Virus record (IMG/VR): IMGVR_UViG_3300049432_000025
Span: 1-40,450 of that record
DNA from: a virus
Length of the DNA stretch: 40,450 nt
Reading direction: 5' to 3' (one strand)
The translations under genes and the position numbers were made by a program. Every line of letters begins with the position of its first letter. Position 1 is the stretch's first letter. Positions 677-35,565 of this stretch are shown here, piece by piece. Below the pieces are notes generated by a model. The model had not been told where the DNA came from and searched no databases. It worked only from the letters and a program-made list of their open reading frames with translations.

Positions 677-695
677 TGAGTAACAGGAGGTGGGC

Positions 696-1397
696 ATGAC
701 AGTACAGATCACCGTTCGATCCCCCGGCAACCGCGAAGTGCGCTACGAGGTGCGCGAGGACACCAACGACGCAGCTCTCATCATCGGCATCCTCGGTTCT
801 GACGAGTACCAGCTCGCCGGGATGGGGGAACTGAGCGGCTGGGCGCTGGACATCGGCGCTCACGTCGGAACAGTGGGACTGGCGCTGGCAATCGACAACC
901 CCGGCCTGTCGGTGGTGTGCGTCGAACCCGTTCCGGGCAACGCTGACCTCATCCGGCACTCGATCCAGATGAACAACCTCGCTGACCGGGTATTCATGGA
1001 GGAGGCCAGCGCCGCCGCCCTGGGGACCTCTACAGTCCCGTGCCACTTCGACTACACGTCGCACACCATCCCTGACCAGGGATACGTGATCCAGAACCGC
1101 TTCATCGGCAACCTGTGGCGCGAGGGTGGCGAGGGCACGGTCATCGACGCCCCTGCGGTGAGTCTCAAGTCCCTGGCCGACAAGTACGGGGCTGACGAGT
1201 GGCGGCTGGTCAAGACCGACTGCGAAGGCTGCGAGTGGCAAGTCTTTACCACTGACGCCAGCCTGTGCGCCGAGATCATCGGCGAATGGCACGACGGCCC
1301 GTTCTCGCGGATCGAGACACTACTGAAAAAGACCCACAAGACCACCCTGCTGACCGACTACGGCGGCTCGGGCATCTTCCGGGCGGTGCGCAAGTGA
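696..1397 (+). CDS. FkbM-family SAM-dependent methyltransferase
   Basis: A 233-residue protein. ATG 696 is chosen over GTG 690 because GGAGG (686-690) is correctly spaced from it. Residues about 50-62 (LDIGAHVGTVGLAL) are the SAM-binding glycine loop, followed by VCVEPVPGNADLI. Residues about 171-183 (VKTDCEGCEWQVF) are the FkbM signature with its acidic pair. FkbM enzymes typically O-methylate sugars or polyketides. The gene overlaps the next glycosyltransferase by 4 nt (GTGA), so methylation of a phage-added sugar is the likely job. The acceptor cannot be told from the sequence. Confidence 0.85.
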   Translation: MTVQITVRSPGNREVRYEVREDTNDAALIIGILGSDEYQLAGMGELSGWALDIGAHVGTVGLALAIDNPGLSVVCVEPVPGNADLIRHSIQMNNLADRVFMEEASAAALGTSTVPCHFDYTSHTIPDQGYVIQNRFIGNLWREGGEGTVIDAPAVSLKSLADKYGADEWRLVKTDCEGCEWQVFTTDASLCAEIIGEWHDGPFSRIETLLKKTHKTTLLTDYGGSGIFRAVRK

Positions 1398-2227
1398 AGG
1401 TCCTCACTGATCTACACCACGGGGTCCTGTTCGAGTCGCTGGCCATGCTATTCGTGGACCGCGCCATCCTCGGCCCTGCTGAACTTCTGGTGTGGGTGGA
1501 CGGCTACTACGTCACCAACCCTGGGATCATCCACGCGGACTTCCCACCACGGGAAGTGAGAGCGGTGACAACCGAATATCTCAAAGACCATCGCCCCGAG
1601 TACGTCATCGCCACGGCAGGCACAAACCGTCACCCGATGCGGGACCTCGCTGAGAGGCTTGGAGCGCGGTACGTCGATCATCTCGGCAACCAGGACGACC
1701 AGCCCATCGGGGATCTTGTCTTACGGGCAATGCTGGGAGATAGGGAACAGGGACTCACCTATCACCCCGAGTTCCACCGTCTCCGATGGAGCAAGCCCGA
1801 GGGCCGAAGGGTCGGGGCGTTCCACGCCTCGTTCCTCACTCTCCCTTGTCGTAGTGATTGGGACCGCGTTGCTTCCGACGAATGGGTCATGTACGGCACT
1901 CCCGAAACGGCGCTTGAGCCGTGGCAGGTGGCCAAGGCTCGCAAGGACTGCATTGCCGCCTGGGTCTGCAAGGACGCTGACGGCTACGGCTTCGCGGTGC
2001 ATGAAGCCTTCGCCTCTGGCAGAGCAGTCATCGGTCACGCCTCGCACTACGAAGGCAAGATGGCCGAGCTGCTGTTCGTTCGGGGCGAGACCTACCTAGA
2101 ACCCGGCGATGACCTCGGCCCCATGCTGGCTGACCCGGTACCGATGGGCCGTGCTGCCTTCGACCGCTTCGATGAGCTGGTCAACTTCGACGCCGAGGCC
2201 GCGGCGATCGCGGACTACCTCTCGTGA
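1394..2227 (+). CDS. Glycosyltransferase-like protein (GT-B type), paralogue of the gene at 4045
   Basis: A 277-residue protein starting at GTG 1394, which overlaps the upstream stop. The N-terminus VLTDLHHGVLFESLAMLFVDR matches the start of the protein at 4045 (VLTDFHHADLFESFGLTLEDR), so the two are paralogues. Residues about 195-215 (DGYGFAVHEAFASGRAVIGH) form the C-terminal nucleotide-sugar site typical of GT-B enzymes. It lacks a full GT4 E-x7-E motif, so donor and activity are uncertain. It belongs to the cassette inserted between head and connector genes and probably acts in the host cytoplasm on virion or surface glycans. Confidence 0.7.
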   Translation: MKVLTDLHHGVLFESLAMLFVDRAILGPAELLVWVDGYYVTNPGIIHADFPPREVRAVTTEYLKDHRPEYVIATAGTNRHPMRDLAERLGARYVDHLGNQDDQPIGDLVLRAMLGDREQGLTYHPEFHRLRWSKPEGRRVGAFHASFLTLPCRSDWDRVASDEWVMYGTPETALEPWQVAKARKDCIAAWVCKDADGYGFAVHEAFASGRAVIGHASHYEGKMAELLFVRGETYLEPGDDLGPMLADPVPMGRAAFDRFDELVNFDAEAAAIADYLS

Positions 2228-2715
2228 AAACTAGCGGTGAGCAGCGTGCTCGGTCCCGCAAGTACTACAGGGAGCACCGTGACGAGAGGCTGATAAAGAA
2301 CGCCGCCAGAAAGGAACTCAACAAGGAGCGCTACGAGGTAGCTGCCAAGCGCTGGCGTGAGGCAAACAAGGCTCATCTCCGCGAGTACATGGCAGAGTGG
2401 CGCGCAGCCAATCGCCAGAAACTGCGTGATTGGCATGCCAACTATCGGGCCACCCACCCTAAGAGTTGGCGAGACCGGGTTCTACGAAAGAAGTACGGCT
2501 TCGGGGTGCGGGAATACAACGATATGGTCATCGGTCAAGCTGGCCGGTGCCTCATCTGCTTCCGGGTTCCTCCAGAGGACCTAGTTGTAGATCACGACCA
2601 CCAGACGGGCAAGGTGCGTGGGCTGCTCTGCCAGCGATGCAATCGGATGCTCGGGCATGTAGACGACAACCCTCGCACTCTCCGTCACGCCATGAATTAC
2701 CTGGAGGCGGCGTGA
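2224..2715 (+). CDS. Recombination endonuclease VII-type HNH nuclease
   Basis: A 163-residue protein with GTG start overlapping the upstream stop. The N-terminal 85 residues are highly basic, with repeated W-R/K and YR..H patterns, and probably bind DNA. From residue 90 (YGFGVREYNDMV) the endonuclease VII fold is clear: zinc pair CLIC, catalytic DHDHQTGKVRGLLC, zinc pair CQRC, then N-R-M-LGH and a C-terminal helix. Members cut branched DNA or act as homing-type nucleases. Sitting between glycosyltransferase genes, it looks like a selfish insertion into the cassette and not a packaging resolvase, although either is possible. Confidence 0.9.
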   Translation: MKTSGEQRARSRKYYREHRDERLIKNAARKELNKERYEVAAKRWREANKAHLREYMAEWRAANRQKLRDWHANYRATHPKSWRDRVLRKKYGFGVREYNDMVIGQAGRCLICFRVPPEDLVVDHDHQTGKVRGLLCQRCNRMLGHVDDNPRTLRHAMNYLEAA

Positions 2716-3734
2716 TGCGTATTGCTCTCTTGGCAAGTCACGAAGTAGCCGAATACGACGACGTGCGCATGTTCACCCAGATGGGCCACGAGGTGTTTTG
2801 TCCGGGCGGCTACCAGAACCCCCGCGAACATACAGGCATCCGTCCCGCAATCCCAGATGCCCCGGTGTTCCCCGAGCTGATCGAAGCCTGCGAGCGGGTA
2901 AGACGCGAGAAGGGCGACCCCGGCCCGATGATCGACTGGGCCAAAGCCGCTCTCCCTGACGAGGTGATCGACTGGGCCGACATCATCATCGCCCACCACT
3001 TCGTTGACCGCTGGCTCGGCGGTCAGTGGGGGAGGATCAAACACAAAAGGGTTGTTTGGCGGACGTGCGGCCAGTCCAATGCCGACCTAGAAGCCTTCAT
3101 GGCCGGCGGCCGGGCCGAGGGATTGCAGATCGTCCGCTACTCCCCGAAGGAGCGGAACCTCCCCAACTACGCGGGTGAGGATGCTGTAATCCGCTTTGGC
3201 AAGGACCCCGCCGAGTGGTACGGATGGACTGGCGAGAACGAAGCCGTGGGCAACATCACCCAGAACATGCGTCAACGCGGCGACGCTTGTGGCTACGGGT
3301 TCTGGCAGGCCGCCACGGAAGGTCTCAAGGTCCGACCGGCTGGCCCTGGGTCCTTGTCCATGCGGGGCGGGTTCGGCGAACTCTCATACGAGGCGATGCA
3401 GCTATATCTGCGCCTCATTCGCTGCTACCTCTACACCGGCACTCAGCCCGCGTCCTACACCCTCGGCCTGATCGAAGCGATGATGACGGGTGTCCCGGTG
3501 GTGAGCATCGGTCCCAAGGCGTTCGGCGGCGACTCCTACGTCGCAGAGCTGTTCGAGGGGCACGAGATCACGATGCGGTTCAGCGACGATCCACAGGATG
3601 CTCAGCGTGCGCTCCGGGTCGCTCTGGATAACATCGACTCGGCGCAGTTCATTAGTGCCAAGACACGCCAGACGGCCATCGGCCTGTTCGGCCTCGACAA
3701 GATCAAGGCCGAGTGGGCGGAGTTCCTGCGATGA
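2715..3734 (+). CDS. Glycosyltransferase-like protein (GT-B type)
   Basis: A 339-residue protein from ATG 2715, overlapping the preceding stop by one base. The start MRIALLASHEVAEYDDVRMF is a Rossmann-like strand. Residues about 246-262 (SYTLGLIEAMMTGVPVVSIG) form the GT-B donor-binding helix: an acidic residue followed by A-x-x-x-G-x-PVV. Residues 85-110 (DWADIIIAHHFVDRW) resemble the acceptor-side core. Donor and acceptor are unknown. It is the second of four such enzymes and is co-transcribed with them, so stepwise assembly of a short glycan is a reasonable reading. Confidence 0.75.
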   Translation: MRIALLASHEVAEYDDVRMFTQMGHEVFCPGGYQNPREHTGIRPAIPDAPVFPELIEACERVRREKGDPGPMIDWAKAALPDEVIDWADIIIAHHFVDRWLGGQWGRIKHKRVVWRTCGQSNADLEAFMAGGRAEGLQIVRYSPKERNLPNYAGEDAVIRFGKDPAEWYGWTGENEAVGNITQNMRQRGDACGYGFWQAATEGLKVRPAGPGSLSMRGGFGELSYEAMQLYLRLIRCYLYTGTQPASYTLGLIEAMMTGVPVVSIGPKAFGGDSYVAELFEGHEITMRFSDDPQDAQRALRVALDNIDSAQFISAKTRQTAIGLFGLDKIKAEWAEFLR

Positions 3735-4048
3735 CAGGACACCGTGGCTGTGGCGTGTGCCGTCAATACATTGCGTGGATGCGATGGGCTCGAAGTGAAC
3801 CCTCGGCACTCCGCGCATTTCTTAGCGAACAGTGGCACGTTCATAGAGCGTCTACCGCTGCCGCTACTGCTTCGGACCTAGATGTAGAACGGCTGGCGGA
3901 AGCGATCTTTCGTGTCGCGATTGGACGACGAGTGGGCATGGTTGCTCTGCCGTGGGCCTTAGAAAATCAGCAGTCGTTTGCCCAATGGTGTAGCCAGCCC
4001 TCCATTGCCGCCGAGTACAGCCGTCTCGGCGCAAACAAGATCTCGTGA
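3731..4048 (+). CDS. Unrecognised small protein in the glycosylation cassette
   Basis: A 105-residue protein starting at ATG 3731 with a 4-nt ATGA overlap with the upstream gene, and overlapping the next gene by 4 nt. It begins GHRGCGVCRQYIAWMRW, with a CxxC pair near the N-terminus and a second cysteine only at QWCSQ, so a complete zinc site is not evident. The middle is helical (LDVERLAEAIFRVAIG). Base composition is less GC-skewed at third positions than in flanking genes, which may mean recent acquisition. No function is assigned. Confidence 0.6.
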   Translation: MTGHRGCGVCRQYIAWMRWARSEPSALRAFLSEQWHVHRASTAAATASDLDVERLAEAIFRVAIGRRVGMVALPWALENQQSFAQWCSQPSIAAEYSRLGANKIS

Positions 4049-5112
4049 GAGTCCTCACCGACTTCCACCACGCCGACCTGTTTGAGTCCTTCGGCCTCAC
4101 CCTCGAAGATCGGCTCGGCTACGAGCTCTACGCCCCGATGGGCATGGACTGGTATCTCCAGGATTACTGGGAGTTCGAGAAGCGCGTCCACGGCGACGCG
4201 GTGGCGCGGCAGTACCTCGAAGGCATCTGGCCCGACCCGGTGGACAAGGGAACCCACTTCGAGCAGGCCGACAAGACTCATCCCGGCCGCATCATCAAGG
4301 GGCTGACCGTCGAGCAGGCCCACGCACTTCGACCGGATGTGGTGATAGCCACGGTGACTCACAACGAGGCGGGGCTGCATCGCTTCGCCACCGAAGCCAA
4401 CGCGACCTTCGGGGTCCAGCTCGGCAACGTGGGGCAGGCGATGGAGGTCAACTGGAACAACGCCCGCTTCGCCCTGTGCTCAACGACCATGCTCGGCTTC
4501 GAGCCGGTGGTGCCGTGGCTGATCTATCGCCAGGAGTTCTCGATGCAGGACTTCCGGTATGAATATCCGCCGGTCGAGACGAACAGCGTCTCGTCGTTTG
4601 TTCAGTGCTTCGCTGAGAACCGCGGCATGGAGCGGGGCGGGTTCTACGACCAGTACGTCGCGTTCGCCGAGGAGCTGCGCGACGAGTTCGACTTCCGGGT
4701 CTACGGCTCCTACGGAACTCAACCGGAAGATCATCTGGCCTGCGGCAACCTTCCCACGACGCCCGACGTAGCGGAGAACATGCGACGGGCGCGGATCATC
4801 TGGCACGCCAAGTTCTGGAGCGACGGCTACGGCCACGTGATCCACAACGCCCACGCTGTCGGCCGGCCGGTCCTTAGCTTCCACAACTACTACGCTGACA
4901 AGCTCGCCGCGCCACTCATGGAGCATGGGGTGACAGGGTTCGATCTGAACCGCATGAGCGCCGACGAGATCACGGCAACCCTTCGACGGCTCAGGGACGA
5001 CCACGAGTACCACGAGACCATCAGCCGCGCTACCGCCAAGCGGTTCCGCGAGGTCGTGGACTTCGATCAGGACGCCGAGAACGTGCGGGCACTGCTGGAG
5101 TCGGTGGCATGA
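4045..5112 (+). CDS. Glycosyltransferase-like protein (GT-B type), paralogue of the gene at 1394
   Basis: A 355-residue protein with GTG start overlapping the upstream stop. It shares its first 20 residues with the protein at 1394 and has the same C-terminal pattern at about 257-278 (WSDGYGHVIHNAHAVGRPVLS), followed by YADKLAAPLMEHGVTGFDL, a layout usual for GT-B sugar transferases. Compared with its paralogue it has an extra central stretch of about 75 residues. A duplicated enzyme flanking two other genes suggests the cassette grew by duplication. Substrates are unknown. Confidence 0.75.
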   Translation: MRVLTDFHHADLFESFGLTLEDRLGYELYAPMGMDWYLQDYWEFEKRVHGDAVARQYLEGIWPDPVDKGTHFEQADKTHPGRIIKGLTVEQAHALRPDVVIATVTHNEAGLHRFATEANATFGVQLGNVGQAMEVNWNNARFALCSTTMLGFEPVVPWLIYRQEFSMQDFRYEYPPVETNSVSSFVQCFAENRGMERGGFYDQYVAFAEELRDEFDFRVYGSYGTQPEDHLACGNLPTTPDVAENMRRARIIWHAKFWSDGYGHVIHNAHAVGRPVLSFHNYYADKLAAPLMEHGVTGFDLNRMSADEITATLRRLRDDHEYHETISRATAKRFREVVDFDQDAENVRALLESVA

Positions 5113-6443
5113 GGCTCATCTTCTTCGGGGACAACAGTTCAACTGGATTCGGTACCGTCACCCTCGACCTCGGACGCCGCTTGGTCGAGCTCGGCGAGGA
5201 CGTGCGCTTCGTATCGCAGAACCCCACGAGCGATGATCTGCCCGAGCCGTTCCGGTCCCGCACCTACGACATCCTGTCCCTGGATCGCGCTACCAATGAG
5301 GTGACTGGCCAGAGTGGGGTATCCGAGGGGTCTCCGTTGATTCCCTCCCTGCTGGATGGGACGTTCGCTGGAACCTTGCACAACGGGGAACCGGCGGGGG
5401 ACTGGGCACCCGAGGTGGCCATCCTGCTCGGTGATTACCGCGCCGTGCAGATGATGATCGACCGCGCACCGGAGGCCTTCGAGGGCCTGCCGTGCTATCA
5501 CTACATCCCCGTCGAGGGCGTCAACCTCCCTCCGAGTTGGGGCAAGCTGTGGCGCGTCTGCACCCCGGTTGCGATGAGCAACTTCGGCGCCGACGAGATC
5601 GCCATCGTGACCGGCGAACGTCCGCCGATGGTCTACCACGGGGTTGATACCGAAGTCTTTCACCCGGTCACTTCCAAGACGCCGGTCAGCATCAAGCCCA
5701 CCGATCACCCCGAACTGACGCTCTCCAGCAAGAACGACTGCAAGCTGCTGTGGGCGCGCTTCTTCGATCTTCCGACACCGAAGAAGTGGGTCCTCAGAAC
5801 AGACAGACATATGCCGCGTAAGCGGTACAACTCGTTCCTTCGTTCGATGGCGCCGGTGCTGCAGCGCCAGCCGGACACGCTGCTGGTGATCCACTGCCAG
5901 CCGATGGACTTCGGCGGCTACCTGCCAGACTCGATCAGCAAAATCCCCGGCGCGCAACTCCTCAATCCGTCAGACGAGACGCGGCCGGAAGGGTATGGGC
6001 TGTTCGGACGGCCCTACCCCCAGATCATCCTCACCAACCTGGTTGGCATCGAGCGCGATGCGCTGGTCAGCCTGTACAACGCGGCCGATGTCTACGCCTC
6101 GCCTTCCGCTGAGGGATTCGGGCTGACCCTCGCTGAGTCGATCGCCTGCGGTGTGCCCGCGGTCGGGATTCGCTACTCCGCTGTCCCCGAGGTCATCGGT
6201 CAAGCCGGCATCACGGTCGAGATCAGCCACCTGGTCGAGAACGAGTACGACCACTTCTGGGCGGCCGTCGATGAGCAAGCGTTCGGTCGAGCGGTGGAGT
6301 TCCTGCTGACCCACCAGACCCGCCGCGAGGACATGGGGCGCAAGGGTCCGGTCCACGTCCGTGCCAACTTCGACTGGGATAACGCCGCCCGCGAGTTCGT
6401 CAGTCTCATCCATTCGTCTGCTCCTGTGGAGGTCGCCGCCTGA
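5109..6443 (+). CDS. Glycosyltransferase family 4-like protein
   Basis: A 444-residue protein from ATG 5109 with ATGA overlap. The N-terminus MRLIFFGDNSSTGFGTVT is the glycine-containing acceptor-domain loop of GT4 enzymes. Residues about 321-350 (SLYNAADVYASPSAEGFGLT, then LAESIACGVPAVG) carry the retaining GT4 E-x7-E signature, and AVPEVIGQAG follows. This is the best-supported glycosyltransferase of the four. It ends one base into the head-tail connector gene, so expression of the sugar enzymes is tied to structural genes. The likely target is a virion protein or host envelope glycan. Confidence 0.9.
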   Translation: MRLIFFGDNSSTGFGTVTLDLGRRLVELGEDVRFVSQNPTSDDLPEPFRSRTYDILSLDRATNEVTGQSGVSEGSPLIPSLLDGTFAGTLHNGEPAGDWAPEVAILLGDYRAVQMMIDRAPEAFEGLPCYHYIPVEGVNLPPSWGKLWRVCTPVAMSNFGADEIAIVTGERPPMVYHGVDTEVFHPVTSKTPVSIKPTDHPELTLSSKNDCKLLWARFFDLPTPKKWVLRTDRHMPRKRYNSFLRSMAPVLQRQPDTLLVIHCQPMDFGGYLPDSISKIPGAQLLNPSDETRPEGYGLFGRPYPQIILTNLVGIERDALVSLYNAADVYASPSAEGFGLTLAESIACGVPAVGIRYSAVPEVIGQAGITVEISHLVENEYDHFWAAVDEQAFGRAVEFLLTHQTRREDMGRKGPVHVRANFDWDNAAREFVSLIHSSAPVEVAA

Positions 6444-18628: not shown

Positions 18629-18801
18629 CCATTGAAGCCCTACTCGACCGCCTAGACGTGATGCAGGCCACCATCGAAGCCCATCCGGGCGAACCGCTGT
18701 TCGACCTCGGCTCCCACGCAGCCATCGAGGCGATCCGGGGCTGGGCCATCGAGCTACGGGATGCACCGACGCTGGCTCAGATTGAGCGAGGCGCGGTATG
18801 A
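18625..18801 (+). CDS. Unrecognised small acidic protein
   Basis: A 58-residue helical protein joined to both neighbours by ATGA overlaps. It reads TIEALLDRLDVMQATIEAHP, then LGSHAAIEAIRGWAIELRDA, with two or three amphipathic helices and no cysteine. Codon usage and overlaps support that it is translated. Confidence 0.65.
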   Translation: MTIEALLDRLDVMQATIEAHPGEPLFDLGSHAAIEAIRGWAIELRDAPTLAQIERGAV

Positions 18802-19562
18802 GCGGCCTCGCAACGACCCGCGCCATCGAGCGCACCAACGGCCACCTGTACACCTACGTCGATGCGGAGGGCCGCCACGGTCCCTACCCCGGTGCGACGG
18901 CCATCACGGGCCTCCAGGACTCTCTCGGAGGCGTTGACGGGCTGATGACGTGGGGAGTGAATCTCGCCCTCGATGAAGTGGAGCGACACAAGGACTTCTC
19001 ACAAGAGGAATGGGCCGGCATCCGCTCGTTGGCCCTCGCCGCCAAGAACAAGCCCCGCGACCTCGGCACGGCCATCCATGCCGTCTGCGACCAGATCAAC
19101 CGGGGCATCCCACCAAACATGTTCACCGATGGCGTAGCGCCCTACATCGCCCAGTACGGGGCCGCTCTGTTCCAGAAGGGCATCCGCGTCCTTGCTTCTG
19201 AGCGATTCGTGGTGAACACCGACATCGGTTTCGGAGGGACCTACGACTCCATCGTGGAGATCGACGGCGAGACCGGACCGCTGGACGTGAAGTCGGGCAA
19301 GGAGAAGCCCTCGCAACGGCTCCAGCTCACGGCCCTGTCGATGGGCCAGTGGCACGGCGAAGCAGGTCTTGAGGCCGAGCCGATGCCGGCCATGAGCGGG
19401 GTCGGATTCATCCTCCTGCTCCGTCCTGACGGCTACGAGCTGGTGCGGCACGAGATCACCGACGCCGACCGCGAGCACGTCATCCACCTGGTCGAGACCT
19501 TCCACCGCATTAGGAACTGGGCGTCGCAGTTCACTCCTACCGCGCTGAGAGAGGTTGCTTGA
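18798..19562 (+). CDS. PD-(D/E)XK exonuclease (Cas4/RecB-like)
   Basis: A 254-residue protein. Motifs in order: conserved helix with KNKPRDLGTAIHAVCDQI (about 83-100, G-T-x-x-H), GFGGTYDSIVEIDGETGPLD (about 144-163) with the first catalytic Asp in TYDS, then the D-V-K catalytic triplet in LDVKSGKEKPSQRLQLTALS with the helix QLTALS as motif IV. This matches phage Cas4- or RecB-type 5' exonucleases used for recombination or host DNA turnover. No CxxC cluster for an iron-sulfur centre is seen, so it is closer to the RecB-type nuclease form. Confidence 0.85.
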   Translation: MSGLATTRAIERTNGHLYTYVDAEGRHGPYPGATAITGLQDSLGGVDGLMTWGVNLALDEVERHKDFSQEEWAGIRSLALAAKNKPRDLGTAIHAVCDQINRGIPPNMFTDGVAPYIAQYGAALFQKGIRVLASERFVVNTDIGFGGTYDSIVEIDGETGPLDVKSGKEKPSQRLQLTALSMGQWHGEAGLEAEPMPAMSGVGFILLLRPDGYELVRHEITDADREHVIHLVETFHRIRNWASQFTPTALREVA

Positions 19563-22090: not shown

Positions 22091-22166
22091 GCGTTTGATT
22101 GGTCATCTCATCGCAGTAACCGCCCTCCTGGCCGTGTGCTTCGTAGCCCAGAAGGGGATGCGATGA
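22080..22166 (+). CDS. 28-residue membrane micro-peptide, possible gene remnant
   Basis: ATG 22080 overlaps the end of the HNH gene by 11 nt; its TGA (22164-22166) overlaps the methyltransferase ATG. It encodes WRERLIGHLIAVTALLAVCF then VAQKGMR, a single transmembrane helix. Its core LLAVCFV is coded by 17 bases (22128-22144) identical to 22873-22889 in the signal peptide of the secreted gene at 22828. It is either a small membrane peptide or a leftover 5' end of that gene separated by insertion of the methyltransferase. Confidence 0.45.
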   Translation: MWRERLIGHLIAVTALLAVCFVAQKGMR

Positions 22167-22831: not shown

Positions 22832-23295
22832 GCCCGCGCTACCTCACCCACGCCTTCGTAGTCGCTTCTTTGCTGGCCGTGTGCTTCGTCTGTCTCGTCA
22901 CCTCCGCTAAAGCAGGGGACGAAACGTGCGAGTTCTATCCGGCCGACCAGTGGGCTCCGGAAGGGACCAAGGGCTGCACGTTGGACGGGCCGACCGAAGG
23001 CGTTGCTTCGACATGGCCGGGTCCGGTCGCTGCGGCCCAATGGTGCGTCTGGCCGTGGACCGATTGCACGCCCGTCACGGTGCAGAGCCACGTCACCGGA
23101 GTGACGATCGTGATTACTCCGCAACAGTTCTGCCACTGCTATTGGGAAACTGATCGGCGGCTGATTGACCTGTCGCCCGGACAGGTGGCGGCCCTTGGAT
23201 TGGACCCGGCGGCCGGACTCTTTGACGTGACCGTCACACCCTTCCGAGAAGGTCTGGTCGAGCCGGTACTGCCGGATACGGCGGTGGGGCGATGA
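22828..23295 (+). CDS. Secreted RlpA-like double-psi beta-barrel protein
   Basis: A 155-residue protein. Residues 1-29 are a signal peptide (SPRYLTHAFVVASLLAVCFV, then CLVTSAKA with a signal-peptidase I site A27-K-A29). The mature part has GVASTWPGPVAAAQWC, WPWTDCTPVTVQSHVTGVTI, CHCYWETDRRLIDLSPGQVA, ALGLDPAAGLFDVTVTP. This follows the RlpA/barwin double-psi barrel: A-S-x-x-G start, V-T-V strand, R-x-I-D-L-S loop, G-L-x-x-V-x-V end. RlpA-type proteins act on peptidoglycan. An early-expressed secreted one could modify the host wall. The catalytic Asp is plausible (D of IDLS) but unproven. Confidence 0.7.
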   Translation: MSPRYLTHAFVVASLLAVCFVCLVTSAKAGDETCEFYPADQWAPEGTKGCTLDGPTEGVASTWPGPVAAAQWCVWPWTDCTPVTVQSHVTGVTIVITPQQFCHCYWETDRRLIDLSPGQVAALGLDPAAGLFDVTVTPFREGLVEPVLPDTAVGR

Positions 23296-23699: not shown

Positions 23700-24491
23700 A
23701 TGACCAAGCGACGTGCTATCTATGGCACCGCTGCTACCAGCCTTTCGCTGGCCCGCTGCTGCCCAGAAGCGCAGCTCCTCTTTGACCGGCTTGTCTCGCA
23801 GGCCGATGACCAGGGACGGCTCCAAGGCGATCCGATGCTGGTCAAGGCATCGTGCATGCCGCTGATCGACCGAGCAACCACCAAAGCCGTTGACCGCTGG
23901 CTCGGAGAGTTGACCGATCAGGGCATGATCCTGCGTTACGAATCGGCCGGCCAACCGCTACTCCAGATCGTCCGATGGTGGGGACACCAAGACTGGCTGC
24001 GCCACGTCTACGCCTCTCGATGGGCACCGCCCGAAGGCTGGGATCAGGACCGCACCAAGGGCAACGGAGCCAAGGAGGATGCCGACAATCTGCCGCCAGA
24101 TGACGGCAAAGTGCCGCCAAGTGGCGGACAGGATGCGGCAGATAGTCGGCAAGTTGCCCCCCTAAGTGGTGGTGGAGTGCGTGGTGAAAGTGGAGACGTG
24201 AGTGAACTAGAGGCGAGTCCGAGTCGTGGTGGAGACGCGCGCGAGGCGGACCCACCACGGCCACCGCCCACCGAGCTTTCTGAACACTCACTTTCACGGC
24301 TCACCACGACCCACTTCGACCTCACCGGCAAACGCTGTAGTCCAGGGGGTGAGGTCATGTACCGCGACCTTCTTCGAATCTATGGGTTCGAGGTGGTCAA
24401 CCGGGCTCAATGGAACGTCGGGGCAACCGATAAGGCCGACCGAGGATTCATTGGTCGGGTCAAGACTCAGTGCAAGAAGGTGGCGGCATGA
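23700..24491 (+). CDS. Replication initiator / replisome organiser-like protein
   Basis: A 263-residue protein from ATG 23700. Residues 1-115 form the winged-helix start common in phage replication organisers: AATSLSLARCCPEAQLLFDR, LVSQADDQGRLQGDPMLVKA, a WLGELTDQGMILRYESAGQP helix-strand unit, then LQIVRWWGHQDWLRHVYASR. Residues 116-200 are an acidic/Pro/Gly-rich linker containing the inverted repeats at 24080-24151. The C-terminal part (YRDLLRIYGFEVVNRAQWNV) would bind a helicase or loader. With no helicase or polymerase in the genome, it presumably recruits host enzymes. The family role is known; the assignment is by pattern. Confidence 0.7.
   Translation: MTKRRAIYGTAATSLSLARCCPEAQLLFDRLVSQADDQGRLQGDPMLVKASCMPLIDRATTKAVDRWLGELTDQGMILRYESAGQPLLQIVRWWGHQDWLRHVYASRWAPPEGWDQDRTKGNGAKEDADNLPPDDGKVPPSGGQDAADSRQVAPLSGGGVRGESGDVSELEASPSRGGDAREADPPRPPPTELSEHSLSRLTTTHFDLTGKRCSPGGEVMYRDLLRIYGFEVVNRAQWNVGATDKADRGFIGRVKTQCKKVAA
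24080..24151. repeat. Nested inverted repeats, candidate replication origin
   Basis: A 17-nt arm at 24080-24096 (TGCCGACAATCTGCCGC) is mirrored at 24135-24151 with one mismatch. Between them lies a second palindrome CCGCCA-AG-TGGCGG (24114-24127), plus further TGCCGCC/GACGGCA copies. All lie in the linker-coding part of the initiator gene, as iterons do in lambda gene O. The linker codons alone do not require this symmetry. Confidence 0.6.
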
Positions 24492-24868
24492 GGCGCATCC
24501 AACGTCAACGATCCAAGGGCTGGCGGATGCCCGAGAACGCGGTCTATGTCGGCCGGCCGTCCTTGTGGGGCAATCCCTACACCATCCGTGACATCTCAGC
24601 GATGTTCCCCGAGATTGAGCCGTCTAACCGAGCCGCGGCAGCCGTTCGCATGTACCGCGGCCAGTTGGAGCATTGGGGGCTGATGTCGGACTACGGCATG
24701 TACGTCACCGATGCTCGGTGGGACGCGACCGACCGCATCATCCAAGAAACCGGGGCCAAGAACATGCGCGAGTACGCGCCCTTTGCCCTCAAAGGCAAGG
24801 ACCTCGTGTGCTGGTGCCCGCTCGACCAGCCCTGCCATGCCGACGTACTCCTGGAGCTGGCCGCATGA
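24488..24868 (+). CDS. DUF4326-family protein
   Basis: A 126-residue protein, ATG 24488. The start RQRSKGWRMPENAVYVGRPS, LWGNPYTIRD and the end LKGKDLVCWCPLDQPCHADV, LLELA are the two hallmarks of the DUF4326 family, widespread in phages and bacteria and with no proven biochemical role. The conserved W-G-N-P-Y and C-W-C-P-x-x-x-P-C-H-A-D could form a metal or catalytic site. The middle (MYRGQLEHWGLMSDYGMYVT) is family-variable. Confidence 0.85.
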   Translation: MRRIQRQRSKGWRMPENAVYVGRPSLWGNPYTIRDISAMFPEIEPSNRAAAAVRMYRGQLEHWGLMSDYGMYVTDARWDATDRIIQETGAKNMREYAPFALKGKDLVCWCPLDQPCHADVLLELAA

Positions 24869-24897
24869 GCTGGACCACCGACAACCCCGGACCCCAC
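24865..24897 (+). repeat. 33-bp gene-start cassette, copy A
   Basis: Identical over 33 bases to 26027-26059 and 26795-26827, each beginning exactly at an ATG that overlaps the upstream stop codon. It codes for MSWTTDNPGPH. There are no synonymous differences between the three copies. Confidence 0.95.
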
Positions 24898-24942
24898 GAA
24901 GGGCATTGGGAAACGATTACTCCGAGAGAGGTGGCGGCATGA
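24865..24942 (+). CDS. 25-residue peptide carrying the MSWTTDNPGPH cassette
   Basis: ATG 24865 to TGA 24940-24942, overlapping both neighbours by 4 nt. It encodes SWTTDNPGPHEGHWETITPR then EVAA. The first 33 bases are identical to the starts of the genes at 26027 and 26795. This is the shortest carrier of the repeated N-terminus. No function is known. Confidence 0.6.
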   Translation: MSWTTDNPGPHEGHWETITPREVAA

Positions 24943-25379
24943 GCGAAACGCTATTGAGTCCTGAGGAAATCGCGCGCCGACTGCGCCAATACCTCCGCGA
25001 GTTCGACATGGCCTATCAAGGCCCCCTGGAGTTGATCGATGCGTTGGAAAAATGGGCGAACGGGTCCTATCCCCGTCGCGGGCAAGTGCTGCCACTTCGT
25101 TCTGAGCTAGGCCCGCCACCGTGGTCGCCGGACGATCCCGCCTTGCAGCGTTGGGAGGCGGCTCACGGTCATGACGTGCGTCTGGAGTGCGATGCCGTCG
25201 ATGGTTGTGGAGCGGCGGATGCGGAACCACCGGAGCATCGCGCCCTAGAGGGACTACGCACGCTGCTCGACGCTATCGAAACGATGGACCAGAAGGTCAC
25301 GCCTTACGGTGACGACCGCCCGGACGGAGGAGAAGGTCGCCGAGAAGGTGAAGGCCGAAGCCGACCGCAAGGAAACTGA
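24939..25379 (+). CDS. Unrecognised acidic early protein
   Basis: A 146-residue protein from ATG 24939. Helical N-terminus (SPEEIARRLRQYLREFDMAY, PLELIDALEKWANGSYPRRG), a proline-rich middle, then ALEGLRTLLDAIETMDQKV. The last 25 residues after about 122 are low-complexity (GEGRREGEGRSRPQ) and lie over the start of the next gene in another frame, so a natural stop may once have been earlier. No family is recognised. Confidence 0.65.
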   Translation: MSETLLSPEEIARRLRQYLREFDMAYQGPLELIDALEKWANGSYPRRGQVLPLRSELGPPPWSPDDPALQRWEAAHGHDVRLECDAVDGCGAADAEPPEHRALEGLRTLLDAIETMDQKVTPYGDDRPDGGEGRREGEGRSRPQGN

Positions 25380-25551
25380 ACGGCTCCGACTCAAGGCCGA
25401 GAATGCGACCGATGAGGAGAAGCGCCGCGCCTCGATCACCCGTCGAGCGATCGGCCTATGGATCAAGCAACGGCCGGCCGATCCGGTTCCGACGAGCTTC
25501 GATGAGCTGGAAGCGTGGCTAATCGCAAACGAAGGACAGGCAGCAGCATGA
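25309..25551 (+). CDS. Charged helical protein
   Basis: An 80-residue frame with GTG start 25309, overlapping the previous gene by 71 nt, and ATGA overlap with the next. The N-terminal half is a Lys/Glu-rich helix (TEEKVAEKVKAEADRKETER, LRLKAENATDEEKRRA) that may form a coiled coil. Then RAIGLWIKQRPADPVPTSFD, ELEAWLIANEGQ. AGAAGG-like sequence before the start is a possible ribosome site. Confidence 0.6.
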   Translation: MTTARTEEKVAEKVKAEADRKETERLRLKAENATDEEKRRASITRRAIGLWIKQRPADPVPTSFDELEAWLIANEGQAAA

Positions 25552-26030
25552 CTCGATACGCAGCCCAAACCGAGGTGAGCAGCGACCGCTCACGCAACGA
25601 GATCGAAAAGACGTTGGCCCGGTACGGAGCCGATCAGTTTTTCTATGGCTGGCAGGACACGGCGGCCACTATCGGCTTTCGGATGCACGGCCGCCGTATT
25701 CAGTTCCTGGTGCCGCTGCCCGATCGACAGTCCGACGAGTTCACTCTGACGCCATCGCGGAAGTACGAGCGCAACATGATCGACGCGAACCGCGCCTACG
25801 AGCAGGCCGTCCGTCAGAAGTGGCGCGCGCTGTCGCTCGTGGTCAAGGCGAAGCTCGAAGCGGTCGAGTCGGGGATTACCACCTTCGAGGAAGAGTTCCT
25901 TGCTCACATGGTCCTGCCTAACGGCCAGCGCGTCGGTGACTTCATGATCCCGCAGGTCGAGAAGGCATACCTCAGCGGAAAGATGCCGCCGATGCTACCG
26001 CTCCTCGAAATGAAAGACGCCGAGTCATGA
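25548..26030 (+). CDS. Conserved phage protein of unknown function
   Basis: A 160-residue protein. The opening TRYAAQTEVSSDRSRNEIEK, TLARYGADQFFYGWQDTAAT and the later QKWRALSLVVKAKLEAVESG, ITTFEEEFLAHMVLPNGQRV pattern is one I recognise from many uncultured and actinobacterial phages, always unassigned. It looks like a soluble alpha/beta protein with a beta-sheet core (GFRMHGRRIQFLVPLPD). Position shortly after the initiator suggests a replication or recombination role, which is inference. Confidence 0.8.
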   Translation: MTRYAAQTEVSSDRSRNEIEKTLARYGADQFFYGWQDTAATIGFRMHGRRIQFLVPLPDRQSDEFTLTPSRKYERNMIDANRAYEQAVRQKWRALSLVVKAKLEAVESGITTFEEEFLAHMVLPNGQRVGDFMIPQVEKAYLSGKMPPMLPLLEMKDAES

Positions 26031-26059
26031 GCTGGACCACCGACAACCCCGGACCCCAC
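26027..26059 (+). repeat. 33-bp gene-start cassette, copy B
   Basis: Second exact copy of the MSWTTDNPGPH-coding segment. It continues CCGAA, matching the longer PGPHP form found at 26307 and 27012. Confidence 0.95.
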
Positions 26060-26551
26060 CCGAACCGGCCGATGCCCGACGTTCAGCGTATCTCGCCACC
26101 TTGGACGAACCGCGCCCAGGAGTTGGTTCAGGCATTCCGTGAGGCCGTATCTCTGGCTCATCACAACGGTGCTCGATATGCTGCGGAGTTCCCGAATCCA
26201 CTCGTGAGCAAGCCCCATCGTGACGTGGAGGACGCCGACTACAACTGCGACAACGAATGGTGCCTTCGGTTCTGGGCGATGGTCCGTGAGGCCGAGTCGA
26301 TGAGCGACCCCGGACCCCACCCGAAAGAGGCGGGCGCCGAGTTGATCCTGCTAGACCTCGCCTTGCAGGAAGCCGCCGCAATCGAGCGCCGCCGCGTGGT
26401 GGACACGCTCAATCTCCTAGAGCGCACGGCAAGTAAGTTCATTGTCCGCTTCCGGTTCGCCCCGAAGAAGGAGCGCGAGGACCGACTGCTCGAACTGGAG
26501 ATTGCAGCGAATCACGCCCGCACCATTCTCGATGAGGTCACTACCCCATGA
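26027..26551 (+). CDS. Helical early protein with two PGPHP motifs
   Basis: A 174-residue protein whose first 11 residues are the MSWTTDNPGPH cassette. A helical domain follows (NRAQELVQAFREAVSLAHHN), then CDNEWCLRFWAMVREAES. At about residue 91 there is a second copy, MSDPGPHPKEA (25-bp repeat 26307-26331), then another helical domain (LILLDLALQEAAAIERRRVV, DTLNLLERTASKFIVRFRF). It looks like two once-separate small genes, each with its own cassette, fused into one. Confidence 0.7.
   Translation: MSWTTDNPGPHPNRPMPDVQRISPPWTNRAQELVQAFREAVSLAHHNGARYAAEFPNPLVSKPHRDVEDADYNCDNEWCLRFWAMVREAESMSDPGPHPKEAGAELILLDLALQEAAAIERRRVVDTLNLLERTASKFIVRFRFAPKKEREDRLLELEIAANHARTILDEVTTP
26307..26331 (+). repeat. 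25-bp PGPHPKEA repeat, copy D
   Basis: Identical over 25 bases (ACCCCGGACCCCACCCGAAA then GAGGC) to 27012-27036, and sharing its first 19 bases with copy B. Here it is internal to the gene at 26027, next to an in-frame ATG (26300). Confidence 0.9.
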
Positions 26552-26625
26552 CCCTCTCTGACCCGAAGCCCCGTTGTCCGGTGTGCGGTCATCGGTCGCC
26601 CTGCCGCATCTGCGGGTGTCGATGA
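26548..26625 (+). CDS. 25-residue zinc-finger micro-protein
   Basis: ATG 26548 overlaps the upstream stop as ATGA; TGA at 26623-26625 overlaps the next ATG. It encodes TLSDPKPRCPVCGHRSPCRI then CGCR. Four to five cysteines in CPVCG and CRICGC give a minimal zinc knuckle. Confidence 0.6.
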   Translation: MTLSDPKPRCPVCGHRSPCRICGCR

Positions 26626-26795
26626 TGCGCGACCGCTCAGTCTTCGAAGTGGTGCGCGCTATCGAAGTCATGCACCGGCAGCCGAACTACCACGACTGGA
26701 GCGCCTACGACATGGCCCGCTTCCTTGTGGAGCGATACCACTGGCCGCTGAGCGATAGCGGGCGTCGGCAGACGCCTTCCGAGAAGGTCCCCTGA
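26622..26795 (+). CDS. Unrecognised small early protein
   Basis: A 57-residue protein (ATG 26622 or 26625). It reads MRDRSVFEVVRAIEVMHRQP, NYHDWSAYDMARFLVERYHW, PLSDSGRRQTPSEKV. It is helical with conserved-looking aromatic residues. The stop overlaps the next cassette ATG. Confidence 0.6.
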   Translation: MMRDRSVFEVVRAIEVMHRQPNYHDWSAYDMARFLVERYHWPLSDSGRRQTPSEKVP

Positions 26796-26827
26796 TGAGC
26801 TGGACCACCGACAACCCCGGACCCCAC
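26795..26827 (+). repeat. 33-bp gene-start cassette, copy C
   Basis: Third exact copy of the 33-bp start cassette. Divergence begins directly after the CAC codon (CCCGAACTGG here). Confidence 0.95.
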
Positions 26828-27046
26828 CCCGAACTGGAATGGGAATGCACTCCTCAGAAGGGATTGCAGGCTAGGCCCTGTGCCAACCGGCGGCTACCCC
26901 TCAAAGAGATGCCGGGTATTCCGATGCCCTATCAGCCCCACCGTCGCATCGGCCTTCATTCCTACGAGCCGGGCCGAGCACACGAGGCGTTCTTTGACCT
27001 GGTTCGGGCCAACCCCGGACCCCACCCGAAAGAGGCTGTGGCATGA
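26795..27046 (+). CDS. Early protein with cassette at both ends
   Basis: An 83-residue protein that begins MSWTTDNPGPHPELEWE and ends LVRANPGPHPKEAVA, so a PGPHP motif stands at both termini. The middle (TPQKGLQARPCANRRLPLKE, YQPHRRIGLHSYEPGRAHEA) has no recognisable fold. The C-terminal copy is the 25-bp repeat 27012-27036. It may be a product of recombination between cassettes. Confidence 0.6.
   Translation: MSWTTDNPGPHPELEWECTPQKGLQARPCANRRLPLKEMPGIPMPYQPHRRIGLHSYEPGRAHEAFFDLVRANPGPHPKEAVA
27012..27036 (+). repeat. 25-bp PGPHPKEA repeat, copy E
   Basis: Exact copy of 26307-26331. It codes for the C-terminal end of the gene at 26795, ten bases before its stop. Confidence 0.9.
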
Positions 27047-27378
27047 GCCCCGAATCCAACGCCGAACGCAGCCTCGCTACCCTCATTGACTGGGAAGGGT
27101 TGGCCCGGCCCGAACGGGAAGTGACCTTCTACCCCTCCAGGAAATGGCGGTTCGATTTCGCGTGGCCGGCCCACAAGTTGGCCGTCGAGGTCGAAGGCGG
27201 GTCATGGGTCAACGGCGCGCACACCAGGGGCAGCCACTTTGAGTCCGACGCCGAAAAGTACAACGCCGCGGCTGAGCTCGGCTGGACCGTCCTGCGCTAC
27301 ACGCCGCGCATGATCGACTCCGGGCAGGCGCTCTACCAGATCCGCCGCATCATCGAAGCAAGGAAGGCAGCAGCATGA
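27043..27378 (+). CDS. DUF559/VSR-like PD-(D/E)XK endonuclease
   Basis: A 111-residue protein. After a helix (SPESNAERSLATLIDWEGL) come the catalytic strands REVTFYPSRKWRFDFAWPAH, KLAVEVEGGSWVNGAHTRGS, with D in RFDFAW and E-x-E in AVEVEGG. Then a helix DAEKYNAAAELGWTVLRYTP. This is the minimal VSR/DUF559 nuclease fold. Roles known for relatives include mismatch nicking and junction processing. The specific role here is unknown. Confidence 0.8.
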   Translation: MSPESNAERSLATLIDWEGLARPEREVTFYPSRKWRFDFAWPAHKLAVEVEGGSWVNGAHTRGSHFESDAEKYNAAAELGWTVLRYTPRMIDSGQALYQIRRIIEARKAAA

Positions 27379-27602
27379 CGACCGAAACCGCGACTCCCGT
27401 TTCACCGGAACGCCTGTTCACCGTGGGCCAGAAGCACCCGCAGCGGTACACATGCCCCGGTTGTGGGGAAAGCGGCCTTGCCCGAACAGCTCTGGTCGAA
27501 CTCGCCTACGTGTTCACCGCCTGCGACTGCCCGAAGGTCGATTACCGCCACCTCTACGAGCAGTTGTGGCATCAGCGTTGTTTTCGTGGCGCGGCCGCAT
27601 GA
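27375..27602 (+). CDS. Zinc-finger mini-protein
   Basis: A 75-residue protein. The pair CPGCGESGLA and a later CDCPKVDYRH with HQRC near the end make a compact zinc site. VELAYVFTACDC forms the strand between them. It overlaps both neighbours by 4 nt. No specific function is assigned. Confidence 0.65.
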   Translation: MTTETATPVSPERLFTVGQKHPQRYTCPGCGESGLARTALVELAYVFTACDCPKVDYRHLYEQLWHQRCFRGAAA

Positions 27603-27895
27603 CACACCATAGCGCGCAGGACGGCCTGCGAGAGAGGGAAGGCATGAGCAGCGAGGACGCAAATGCTCGCGCGCGAGGTTTGGCGCACAGGTCGGCCGCG
27701 ATCAAGCCGACCGCCGATGCAGATGCGATGGCAGCCCTGGAGCACCTGTTCTTCATCATCGAACGGCTGGACCGCACTCAGGGCTCCGAGACAGACCTGA
27801 GCCACAACGTGACCGTGACGCTCCAGACGTGGAAGCAGTTGGTTAGTCCGGCCGTGGCGACCGTTCGTCGGGCTCTTGATGAGCGTTCCCGATGA
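27599..27895 (+). CDS. Unrecognised helical early protein
   Basis: A 98-residue protein from ATG 27599; ATG 27644 with GGGAAGG upstream is an alternative start that would give 83 residues. Helices: DADAMAALEHLFFIIERLDR, VTVTLQTWKQLVSPAVATVR, RALDE. No cysteine pairs or membrane segments. Function unknown. Confidence 0.6.
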   Translation: MTHHSAQDGLREREGMSSEDANARARGLAHRSAAIKPTADADAMAALEHLFFIIERLDRTQGSETDLSHNVTVTLQTWKQLVSPAVATVRRALDERSR

Positions 27896-33879: not shown

Positions 33880-34343
33880 TGGGTCACCGTCGCTACACCG
33901 CAGATCAGAAGGCACAGGCAGTAGCCGACGCCGAAGTCAATGGTGTGGTGCAGGCGGCCGACGCTAATGGCGTGCCCGAATCCACGCTGCGCTACTGGAT
34001 CGACGACCCCAAGTTCGCGGAGATTCGTGTGAAAACACGCGAGGAGCGACGAGACGGCTATCGCATCCTCGTGGCCCTCGCTCAGAAGCGATTGGTGGAG
34101 CTCATCCCGTCGATGGAGCCGCGGGACCTGACCATTTTGCTCGGGGTTGGCCAGGACAAGGATCTGCTGCTGAGTGGCGAGGCAACCGGGCGCACTGAGA
34201 CAAGGACGTGGACCGATGACCTCGGCGATGATGAGAAGCAACGGCTCCGCGACTGGATCGACTCGCTCGACGATCCCGCCACCCCTCCAAGCCAAGGAGC
34301 ATCGACAGAGCCTGCGGTCGAAGCTGGGACCGAGGTTCGCTAA
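33879..34343 (+). CDS. terS: Terminase small subunit
   Basis: A 154-residue protein from ATG 33879, overlapping the upstream TGA by one base. The N-terminal 45 residues are a helix-turn-helix (RYTADQKAQAVADAEVNGVV, QAADANGVPESTLRYWIDDP) that would recognise the packaging site. Central helices (LVALAQKRLVELIPSMEPRD) suit oligomerisation. An acidic tail follows. It is directly followed, with a 128-nt overlap, by the large terminase. The HTH is close to transposase-type repeats, as is usual for this family. Confidence 0.8.
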   Translation: MGHRRYTADQKAQAVADAEVNGVVQAADANGVPESTLRYWIDDPKFAEIRVKTREERRDGYRILVALAQKRLVELIPSMEPRDLTILLGVGQDKDLLLSGEATGRTETRTWTDDLGDDEKQRLRDWIDSLDDPATPPSQGASTEPAVEAGTEVR

Positions 34344-35565
34344 CGAGCAACAGCGGGAGTTCTACGACTCCCGAGCCCGCGAGATCCTGTACTCCGGGGC
34401 CTTCGGTGCCGGTAAGAGCCGCATTCTGTGTGAGAAGGCATTCCACCTCGCTCAACGCTACGACGGTGTGCCGATCGCTATCGTGCGCAAGGTGGCCCGT
34501 AGCCTTCCGGCGACCACCAAAACGACATTCATCCGCGACGTACTCCGTCCTGCAGGCGTGCCGTATCGGGAGAACAAGTCAGAAGGCTGGATCGAGTTCC
34601 CCAATGGGAGCCGCATCACCTTCTTTGGCCTCGACCCAGACCCCGAGACGGGGATGCCGTCCAAGGTCGGATCATTCGATGCCGGGTTCATCTTCGTGGA
34701 TGAGGCGGTGGAGCTAGCAGAGGCCGACTGGGTGATGCTGCAGGGCCGCCTGCGGTCCACCGTGGCTCCCTATCGCCAGATCGCTGCAGCCACCAACCCC
34801 TCGCATCCTGAGCACTGGCTCAAGAAGCGATTCGATGCACCACATCCACATCGCCTGTACCTCCACGCCAGCAGCTTCGATAACCGTCTGCTTCCCCAGG
34901 ACTACTTGGAGCAGCAGGGCGAGCTCACCGGGCTGTACCGGATGCGATACGCCGAAGGGCTGTGGGTTGCCGTCGAGGGTGTGCTGTGGAAGCAGGGCAT
35001 GTTCGGCTATCGCGACGCCCCGCTGCATCGGGTCAACGGCGAGTATGTCCCCGATTACGTCCGTATCGTGGTTGCAGTGGACCCAGCGGTGACGCATGGT
35101 CCCGACTCCGACGAAACCGGGATCATCGTTGCAGCCAGGGGTGCCGATGGTCGTGGCTATGTGCTTGACGACCTATCAGGGACCTACTCACCTGGTCAGT
35201 GGGGCCGCCGCGCAGGGCTGGAAGCCTACGACGAGTGGAAGGCTGATGCAGTCGTCGGCGAGGTCAATAACGGTGGAGACCTCATCGAGTCCAACCTGCG
35301 CAACTGTGGCTTCCGCGGTCGCTATCGGAAGGTCACCGCATCCAAGGGCAAGCGTAAGCGTGCCGAGCCCGTGGTGGCTCTGTACGAGCAGGGGCTCATC
35401 AGCCACGTTCGCACCTTCCCCCAGCTCGAAGCACAGATGTTCTCGTTCGACCCGGAGAACATGAAGTCGTCGCCTGACCGATGCGATGCGCTGGTGTGGG
35501 CGCTGACCGAGCTATTCGAGACACAGACCAGTGGGCGCCCCGAATCATTCTCCGTCGCCGCCTAG
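34216..35565 (+). CDS. terL: Terminase large subunit
   Basis: A 449-residue protein. ATG 34216 is chosen because AAGGA (34202-34206) is well spaced; the start lies within the small subunit gene. ATPase motifs: Walker A GAFGAGKS (about 60-67), Walker B GFIFVDEAVE (about 157-166), and coupling motif AATNPSHP. Nuclease residues: VVAVDPAVT (about 284-292), GEVNNGGD (about 348), and SPDRCDALVWAL (about 418-429). Length and motifs fit terminase_6/terminase_3-type enzymes that cut and pump DNA into the prohead. Confidence 0.95.
   Translation: MTSAMMRSNGSATGSTRSTIPPPLQAKEHRQSLRSKLGPRFANEQQREFYDSRAREILYSGAFGAGKSRILCEKAFHLAQRYDGVPIAIVRKVARSLPATTKTTFIRDVLRPAGVPYRENKSEGWIEFPNGSRITFFGLDPDPETGMPSKVGSFDAGFIFVDEAVELAEADWVMLQGRLRSTVAPYRQIAAATNPSHPEHWLKKRFDAPHPHRLYLHASSFDNRLLPQDYLEQQGELTGLYRMRYAEGLWVAVEGVLWKQGMFGYRDAPLHRVNGEYVPDYVRIVVAVDPAVTHGPDSDETGIIVAARGADGRGYVLDDLSGTYSPGQWGRRAGLEAYDEWKADAVVGEVNNGGDLIESNLRNCGFRGRYRKVTASKGKRKRAEPVVALYEQGLISHVRTFPQLEAQMFSFDPENMKSSPDRCDALVWALTELFETQTSGRPESFSVAA

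Follow-up and report, generated by a model that had tools for sequence, protein, structure and literature searches.

The virus record and its small-gene cluster

The window, by which the whole analysed stretch of 40,450 bases is meant, is a record of an uncultured virus whose ends carry a 127-nt repeat, like those of circularly assembled contigs. Its genes are those of a tailed phage and include ones for a terminase (34300-35565), a C39-like peptidase, a tape measure protein, an exonuclease (phrog_298-type, 18798-19562), HNH proteins and a DNA methyltransferase. The phage is isolated: relatives of its terminase reach about 37% at best across most of their length, 56% being confined to short segments, and close kin sought by way of the terminase turned out to be distant relatives only. 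At 690-6443, flanked by the capsid gene and the tail genes, lie FkbM-type methyltransferase and glycosyltransferase-like genes; no match to a defence family was obtained. A pair of small genes at 22111-22144 and 22856-22889 shares a 34-nt stretch (76% similar) that encodes a hydrophobic LLAVCFV segment near the N-termini.

The cluster under study (24.5-27.9 kb; Table 1) consists of small genes, each of which starts on the stop of the preceding gene. Stop and start overlap at all 12 junctions from 24488 to 27892, and the repeated gene start described below (the cassette) is present at only three of these; the overlap is a rule of the whole cluster and not a special property of the cassette. The phrog_17260 gene directly before the second cassette copy is very widespread, with 500 confirmed relatives among the IMG/VR candidates and others in a Leptospira phage and mycobacteriophages, at 53-56% identity across great host distance. 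A mini-ORF of 25 aa (26548-26625, MTLSDPKPRCPVCGHRSPCRICGCR), coupled on both sides and without family match, has a CxxC...CxxC pattern. Exact 15-nt repeats are centred on gene junctions of the cluster, namely AGGTGGCGGCATGAG (24478-24492 and 24929-24943) and AGGCAGCAGCATGAC (25538-25552 and 27365-27379).

Table 1. Positions of genes and repeat copies in the small-gene cluster
Feature	Position	Strand	Remarks
DUF4326 gene, upstream of copy 1	24488..24868	+	Pfam PF14216, E=9.7e-21; its TGA overlaps the cassette ATG
Gene 1, 25-codon mini-ORF MSWTTDNPGPHEGHWETITPREVAA	24865..24942	+	No family match; ambiguous coding bias past the cassette
Cassette copy 1 (33 bp, MSWTTDNPGPH)	24865..24897	+	Exact match
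phrog_17260 gene, function unknown, directly before copy 2	25548..26030	+	E=8.2e-65
Gene 2, 174-aa ORF	26027..26551	+	In-frame coding bias in both parts
Cassette copy 2 (33 bp)	26027..26059	+	Exact match; same as copy 3 over 35 bp
Degenerate start copy in gene 2	26289..26331	+	Upstream GAGGCCGAGTC, in-frame ATG at 26300, MSDPGPHPKEA, exact 25-bp core 26307-26331
Gene 3, 83-aa ORF with cassette start and end NPGPHPKEAVA*	26795..27046	+	Weak in-frame coding bias
Cassette copy 3 (33 bp)	26795..26827	+	Exact match
25-bp PGPHPKEA copy, 3' end of gene 3	27012..27036	+	Exact match with 26307-26331

Copies of the cassette and the genes that carry them

The cassette is a 33-mer, ATGAGCTGGACCACCGACAACCCCGGACCCCAC, which forms codons 1-11 (MSWTTDNPGPH) of three ORFs and is exact in all three copies, as the preliminary description had reported, beginning at 24865, 26027 and 26795; the next-best place for it anywhere in the 40,450 bases has 12 mismatches. 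Identity between the full copies begins at the A of the ATG, with only 0-1 nt of identity upstream. Each cassette start overlaps the previous stop (ATGA at 24865 and 26027, TGATG at 26795), which had also been described correctly, though all 12 junctions of the cluster do so. The repeats of 33-35 bp are spaced by 1162 and 768 bp, and all exact repeats are confined to 2.2 kb of the 40.4-kb genome.

Two further 25-bp copies encoding PGPHPKEA, likewise reported before, were found to be exact (26307-26331 and 27012-27036), and the codon phase is the same in all five cores. The former of these follows an in-frame ATG of its own at 26300, so that gene 2 contains a fourth, altered gene start. With one inserted base allowed, 10 of the 11 nt before this ATG agree with the sequence preceding the 26027 copy, a level reached at no more than about 6 of 40,303 positions in the rest of the window. 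Gene 2 thus reads like two fused parts, the first started by the cassette and the second by MSDPGPHPKEA. When the five cores were exchanged pairwise in silico, all 10 products were open ORFs ending in an overlapping start; the open frames of these recombinants, like the identity, register and common nucleotide descent of the copies, are direct observations.

None of the products of genes 1-3 matches a family, and for gene 2 no family, PDB or phage match was obtained. Past the cassette, genes 1 and 3 are faintly alike (EGHWETITPRE and PELEWECTPQK, a likeness equalled by 0.05-0.2% of peptide windows from the phage itself), and this continuation (E..WE.TP) has diverged by indels and changed codons. 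The inserts of genes 2 and 3 have no homology to each other beyond chance. Structures predicted for genes 2 and 3 are of low confidence (mean pLDDT 51 and 58, respectively). The NPGP tetrapeptide suggested eukaryotic 2A skipping, which was rejected since the upstream 2A consensus is absent; moreover, no response of bacterial ribosomes to 2A is known.

Searches for relatives

The first 23 bases of the cassette and three degenerate codings of its peptide were absent from IMG/VR, and two codings of the peptide were absent from 84,980 genomes. The 174-aa protein of gene 2 had no true relative among viral contigs, and GenBank phages (DNA and protein) and plasmids gave nothing significant, in searches from which records very near the window may have been left out. 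Among 80 loci fetched around relatives of the phrog_17260 gene, no PGPHP gene start was found. Phage DNA not infrequently contains direct repeats of at least 24 nt within 3 kb, which were present in 11 of 165 loci (1.66 Mb). Among 170 other loci (1.67 Mb), tandem repeats aside, the cassette had no clean start-anchored counterpart of its length. The nearest case of a start-anchored repeat was that of two genes (L075:2346 and L075:2684) sharing ATGAAAGGAGATTGCTATACC, 21 nt, at their apparent start, where ATGAAAGGAGATTGCTATACC includes a second start and, upstream of it, a GGAG stretch resembling a ribosome-binding site.

Common origin of the copies

A chance origin was excluded by the occurrence of the 33-mer three times in 40 kb. 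Convergence of codons was also excluded: given the peptide, two independent codings would be identical with a probability of 5e-4 under the codon usage of the phage, and the copies therefore share descent at the nucleotide level. Uncommon codons are common to them, namely GGA (14% in the phage) and AAA (10%), the latter in the PKEA pieces. The copies have one nucleotide origin, which is either too recent for a silent change or kept identical. The earlier proposal that they are very recent or held at the nucleotide level was thus right as a disjunction, given the 12 mismatches of the next match and the above probability; because no other record with the sequence or the peptide was found, maintenance and recency are inseparable here.

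Alternative explanations

If the identity is maintained, the first 33 nt might act in the mRNA or DNA, for instance by keeping the start open for reinitiation or by binding a regulator, and be held by selection. The three copies without silent change and the left edge at the ATG accord with such an element. In each of the three contexts the codons in use exceed about 90% of synonymous versions in openness (7-11% of recodings equal or surpass them), a low degree of structure that gives a weak hint of easy initiation. Against this stand nine of the 12 coupled junctions, which work without the cassette, so that it is not required for coupling, together with the location of two of the five core copies away from main gene starts and the restriction of the sequence to this phage among those searched. 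When the 33-mer and its three contexts were folded and compared with shuffles, no z-score fell below -0.3, and no Rfam match was obtained; a structured RNA or riboregulator is not supported, neither a conserved fold nor a known family having been found. Of the roles suggested in the preliminary description, RNA structure accordingly finds no support, and a reinitiation enhancer is not needed, despite slightly less structure than in most synonymous versions. Selection on the nucleotides themselves is distinctly unlikely. A function of the peptide, MSWTTDNPGPHP, has somewhat better prospects and is still unlikely: it would be a short unstructured N-terminal address that directs a variety of small proteins to a common partner or place, its DNA being identical on account of recent copying. 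In T4, a capsid targeting sequence of this sort is a short N-terminal peptide on different small internal proteins, and it mediates packaging and is cleaved off by the prohead protease. By analogy, the cassette might be a tag of the same type, for its N-terminal peptide too is common to otherwise different proteins, the shared part runs exactly from the start codon with a different remainder, all copies are in frame, and the segment is predicted as coil in single-sequence models of low confidence. Unlike the T4 sequence, the cassette has identical silent sites as well, and further copies of it stand in the interior of gene 2 and at the C-terminal end of gene 3, positions in which an N-terminal tag could not act as such; in gene 1, with its product of 25 aa, there is little room for a cargo, and neither a protease site nor a partner was found.

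The cassette could instead be what remains of the first codons of a mobile HNH-type endonuclease gene, left at several junctions after insertion and decay. The best gene-start match among GenBank phages is indeed the start of an HNH gene of Gordonia phage Wrigley and its kin (MTWSNDNPGR), an alignment of 26 nt from the ATG onwards reaching 88.5%; the Wrigley start overlaps the preceding stop too, and one family member begins with MTWTNKPGR. However, the E-value of this match is about 1, so that chance is possible, the second half (PGPHP) is not shared, and an HNH domain (phrog_333 type) does not follow the shared start in genes 1-3, which makes such an origin very doubtful. Also very improbable, and slightly more so, is a portable translated start module, that is, a fixed segment from the ATG to codon 11 that fronts new ORFs of the coupled operon and serves as a recombination site for gene birth as well; such a module would supply every new gene with a functional start and with an N-terminal peptide common to all. 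The joining of unrelated reads at the repeat by assembly was also weighed, the record being from an uncultured virus, and is extremely improbable: the 127-nt terminal repeat probably reflects a long assembly k-mer, which would be much larger than 33 nt and should resolve 33-nt repeats, and all copies are situated in open frames whose junctions are coupled.

Copying of a gene start as the proposed explanation

The explanation that we favour, and to which we give about an even chance, is that a gene start has become a short direct repeat, the cassette, recently copied within a coupled and fast-changing array of small genes, where it seeds duplication and fusion of ORFs. The repeat unit would simply happen to be a gene start, copied in one reading frame among ATGA-coupled small genes, and the lack of silent change between the full copies would reflect very recent copying or ongoing homogenisation by recombination. 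As every copy opens with a start codon overlapping the stop before it, exchange at the repeat would swap the sequence after the start while coupling and frame are retained. Such exchange would explain unrelated genes with one start, the fused fourth start of gene 2 and the terminal PGPHPKEA of gene 3. We infer the direction and timing of the copying, and homologous or short-homology recombination as its agent.

Several observations speak for copying. The copy at 26300 brings with it the last 11 nt of the gene preceding copy 2, like a duplicated segment; the repeats are confined to a small part of the genome and share uncommon codons, and the continuation common to genes 1 and 3 has diverged. 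Further junction repeats (AGGTGGCGGCATGAG and AGGCAGCAGCATGAC) occur in the cluster, and the phage has an exonuclease, for which (phrog_298-type) no annealing partner was identified. Precedent is given by the mycobacteriophage LRRHood (PMC3029335), and direct repeats are not rare in the phage loci surveyed above. The suggestion of a recombination seed in the preliminary description therefore fits best, the start being duplicated in register, gene 2 reading like a fused ORF and the products of pairwise exchange being in frame. On the other side, the left edge falls exactly at the ATG in each of the three full copies, a pattern that plain recombination does not predict and that indicates coding or initiation as the property being kept. 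The identity also ends abruptly, genes 2 and 3 being unrelated downstream, and the cassette has stayed unchanged beside a diverged continuation in genes 1 and 3, which calls for its homogenisation or for selection on it. The shuffled arrangement was seen in no relative, none having been found.

Comparison with described systems and significance

In T4-type and lambdoid mosaic phages, boundary sequences and mobile regulatory cassettes are intergenic and regulatory. The cassette resembles boundary sequences (PMC3029335) in being short, shared and placed at gene borders, where it permits exchange of modules; unlike them, it is the coding start of the genes. In LRRHood, a 1.35-kb gene insertion is flanked by 29-bp direct repeats (PMC3029335), which resemble the cassette in being short, exact, situated at the ends of small genes and able to explain gene gain and loss through recombination. 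The cassette shares the features of such repeats (exact, about 20-40 bp, flanking gene-sized blocks), whereas those of LRRHood are two copies that do not lie at start codons, and here three full copies, starting at the ATG and translated in frame, are accompanied by two partial ones. The Start-Associated Sequences (SAS/ESAS) of Cluster K mycobacteriophages, a 13-bp SAS upstream of the start codon of many genes and conserved among phages (PMC3203893), are similar in that a short sequence is repeated at the starts of unrelated small genes in one genome. The cassette differs from SAS in that it begins at the ATG instead of lying 5' of the start, is coding, has three copies and has no relative among the records searched. 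The earlier statement that no system of this kind had been described was thus too strong, in view of gene-gain/loss repeats (PMC3029335) and start-codon-linked repeats (PMC3203893, those being upstream). The principle is known from the LRRHood repeats, and the difference here is that the repeat is the translated start itself.

If shuffling of the cassette is not confirmed, it would represent a local duplication with little wider consequence. If relatives do confirm it, the assembly of new small phage genes would have been caught in the act, and the joint at which they are put together would be the coding start of a gene and not a linker between genes.
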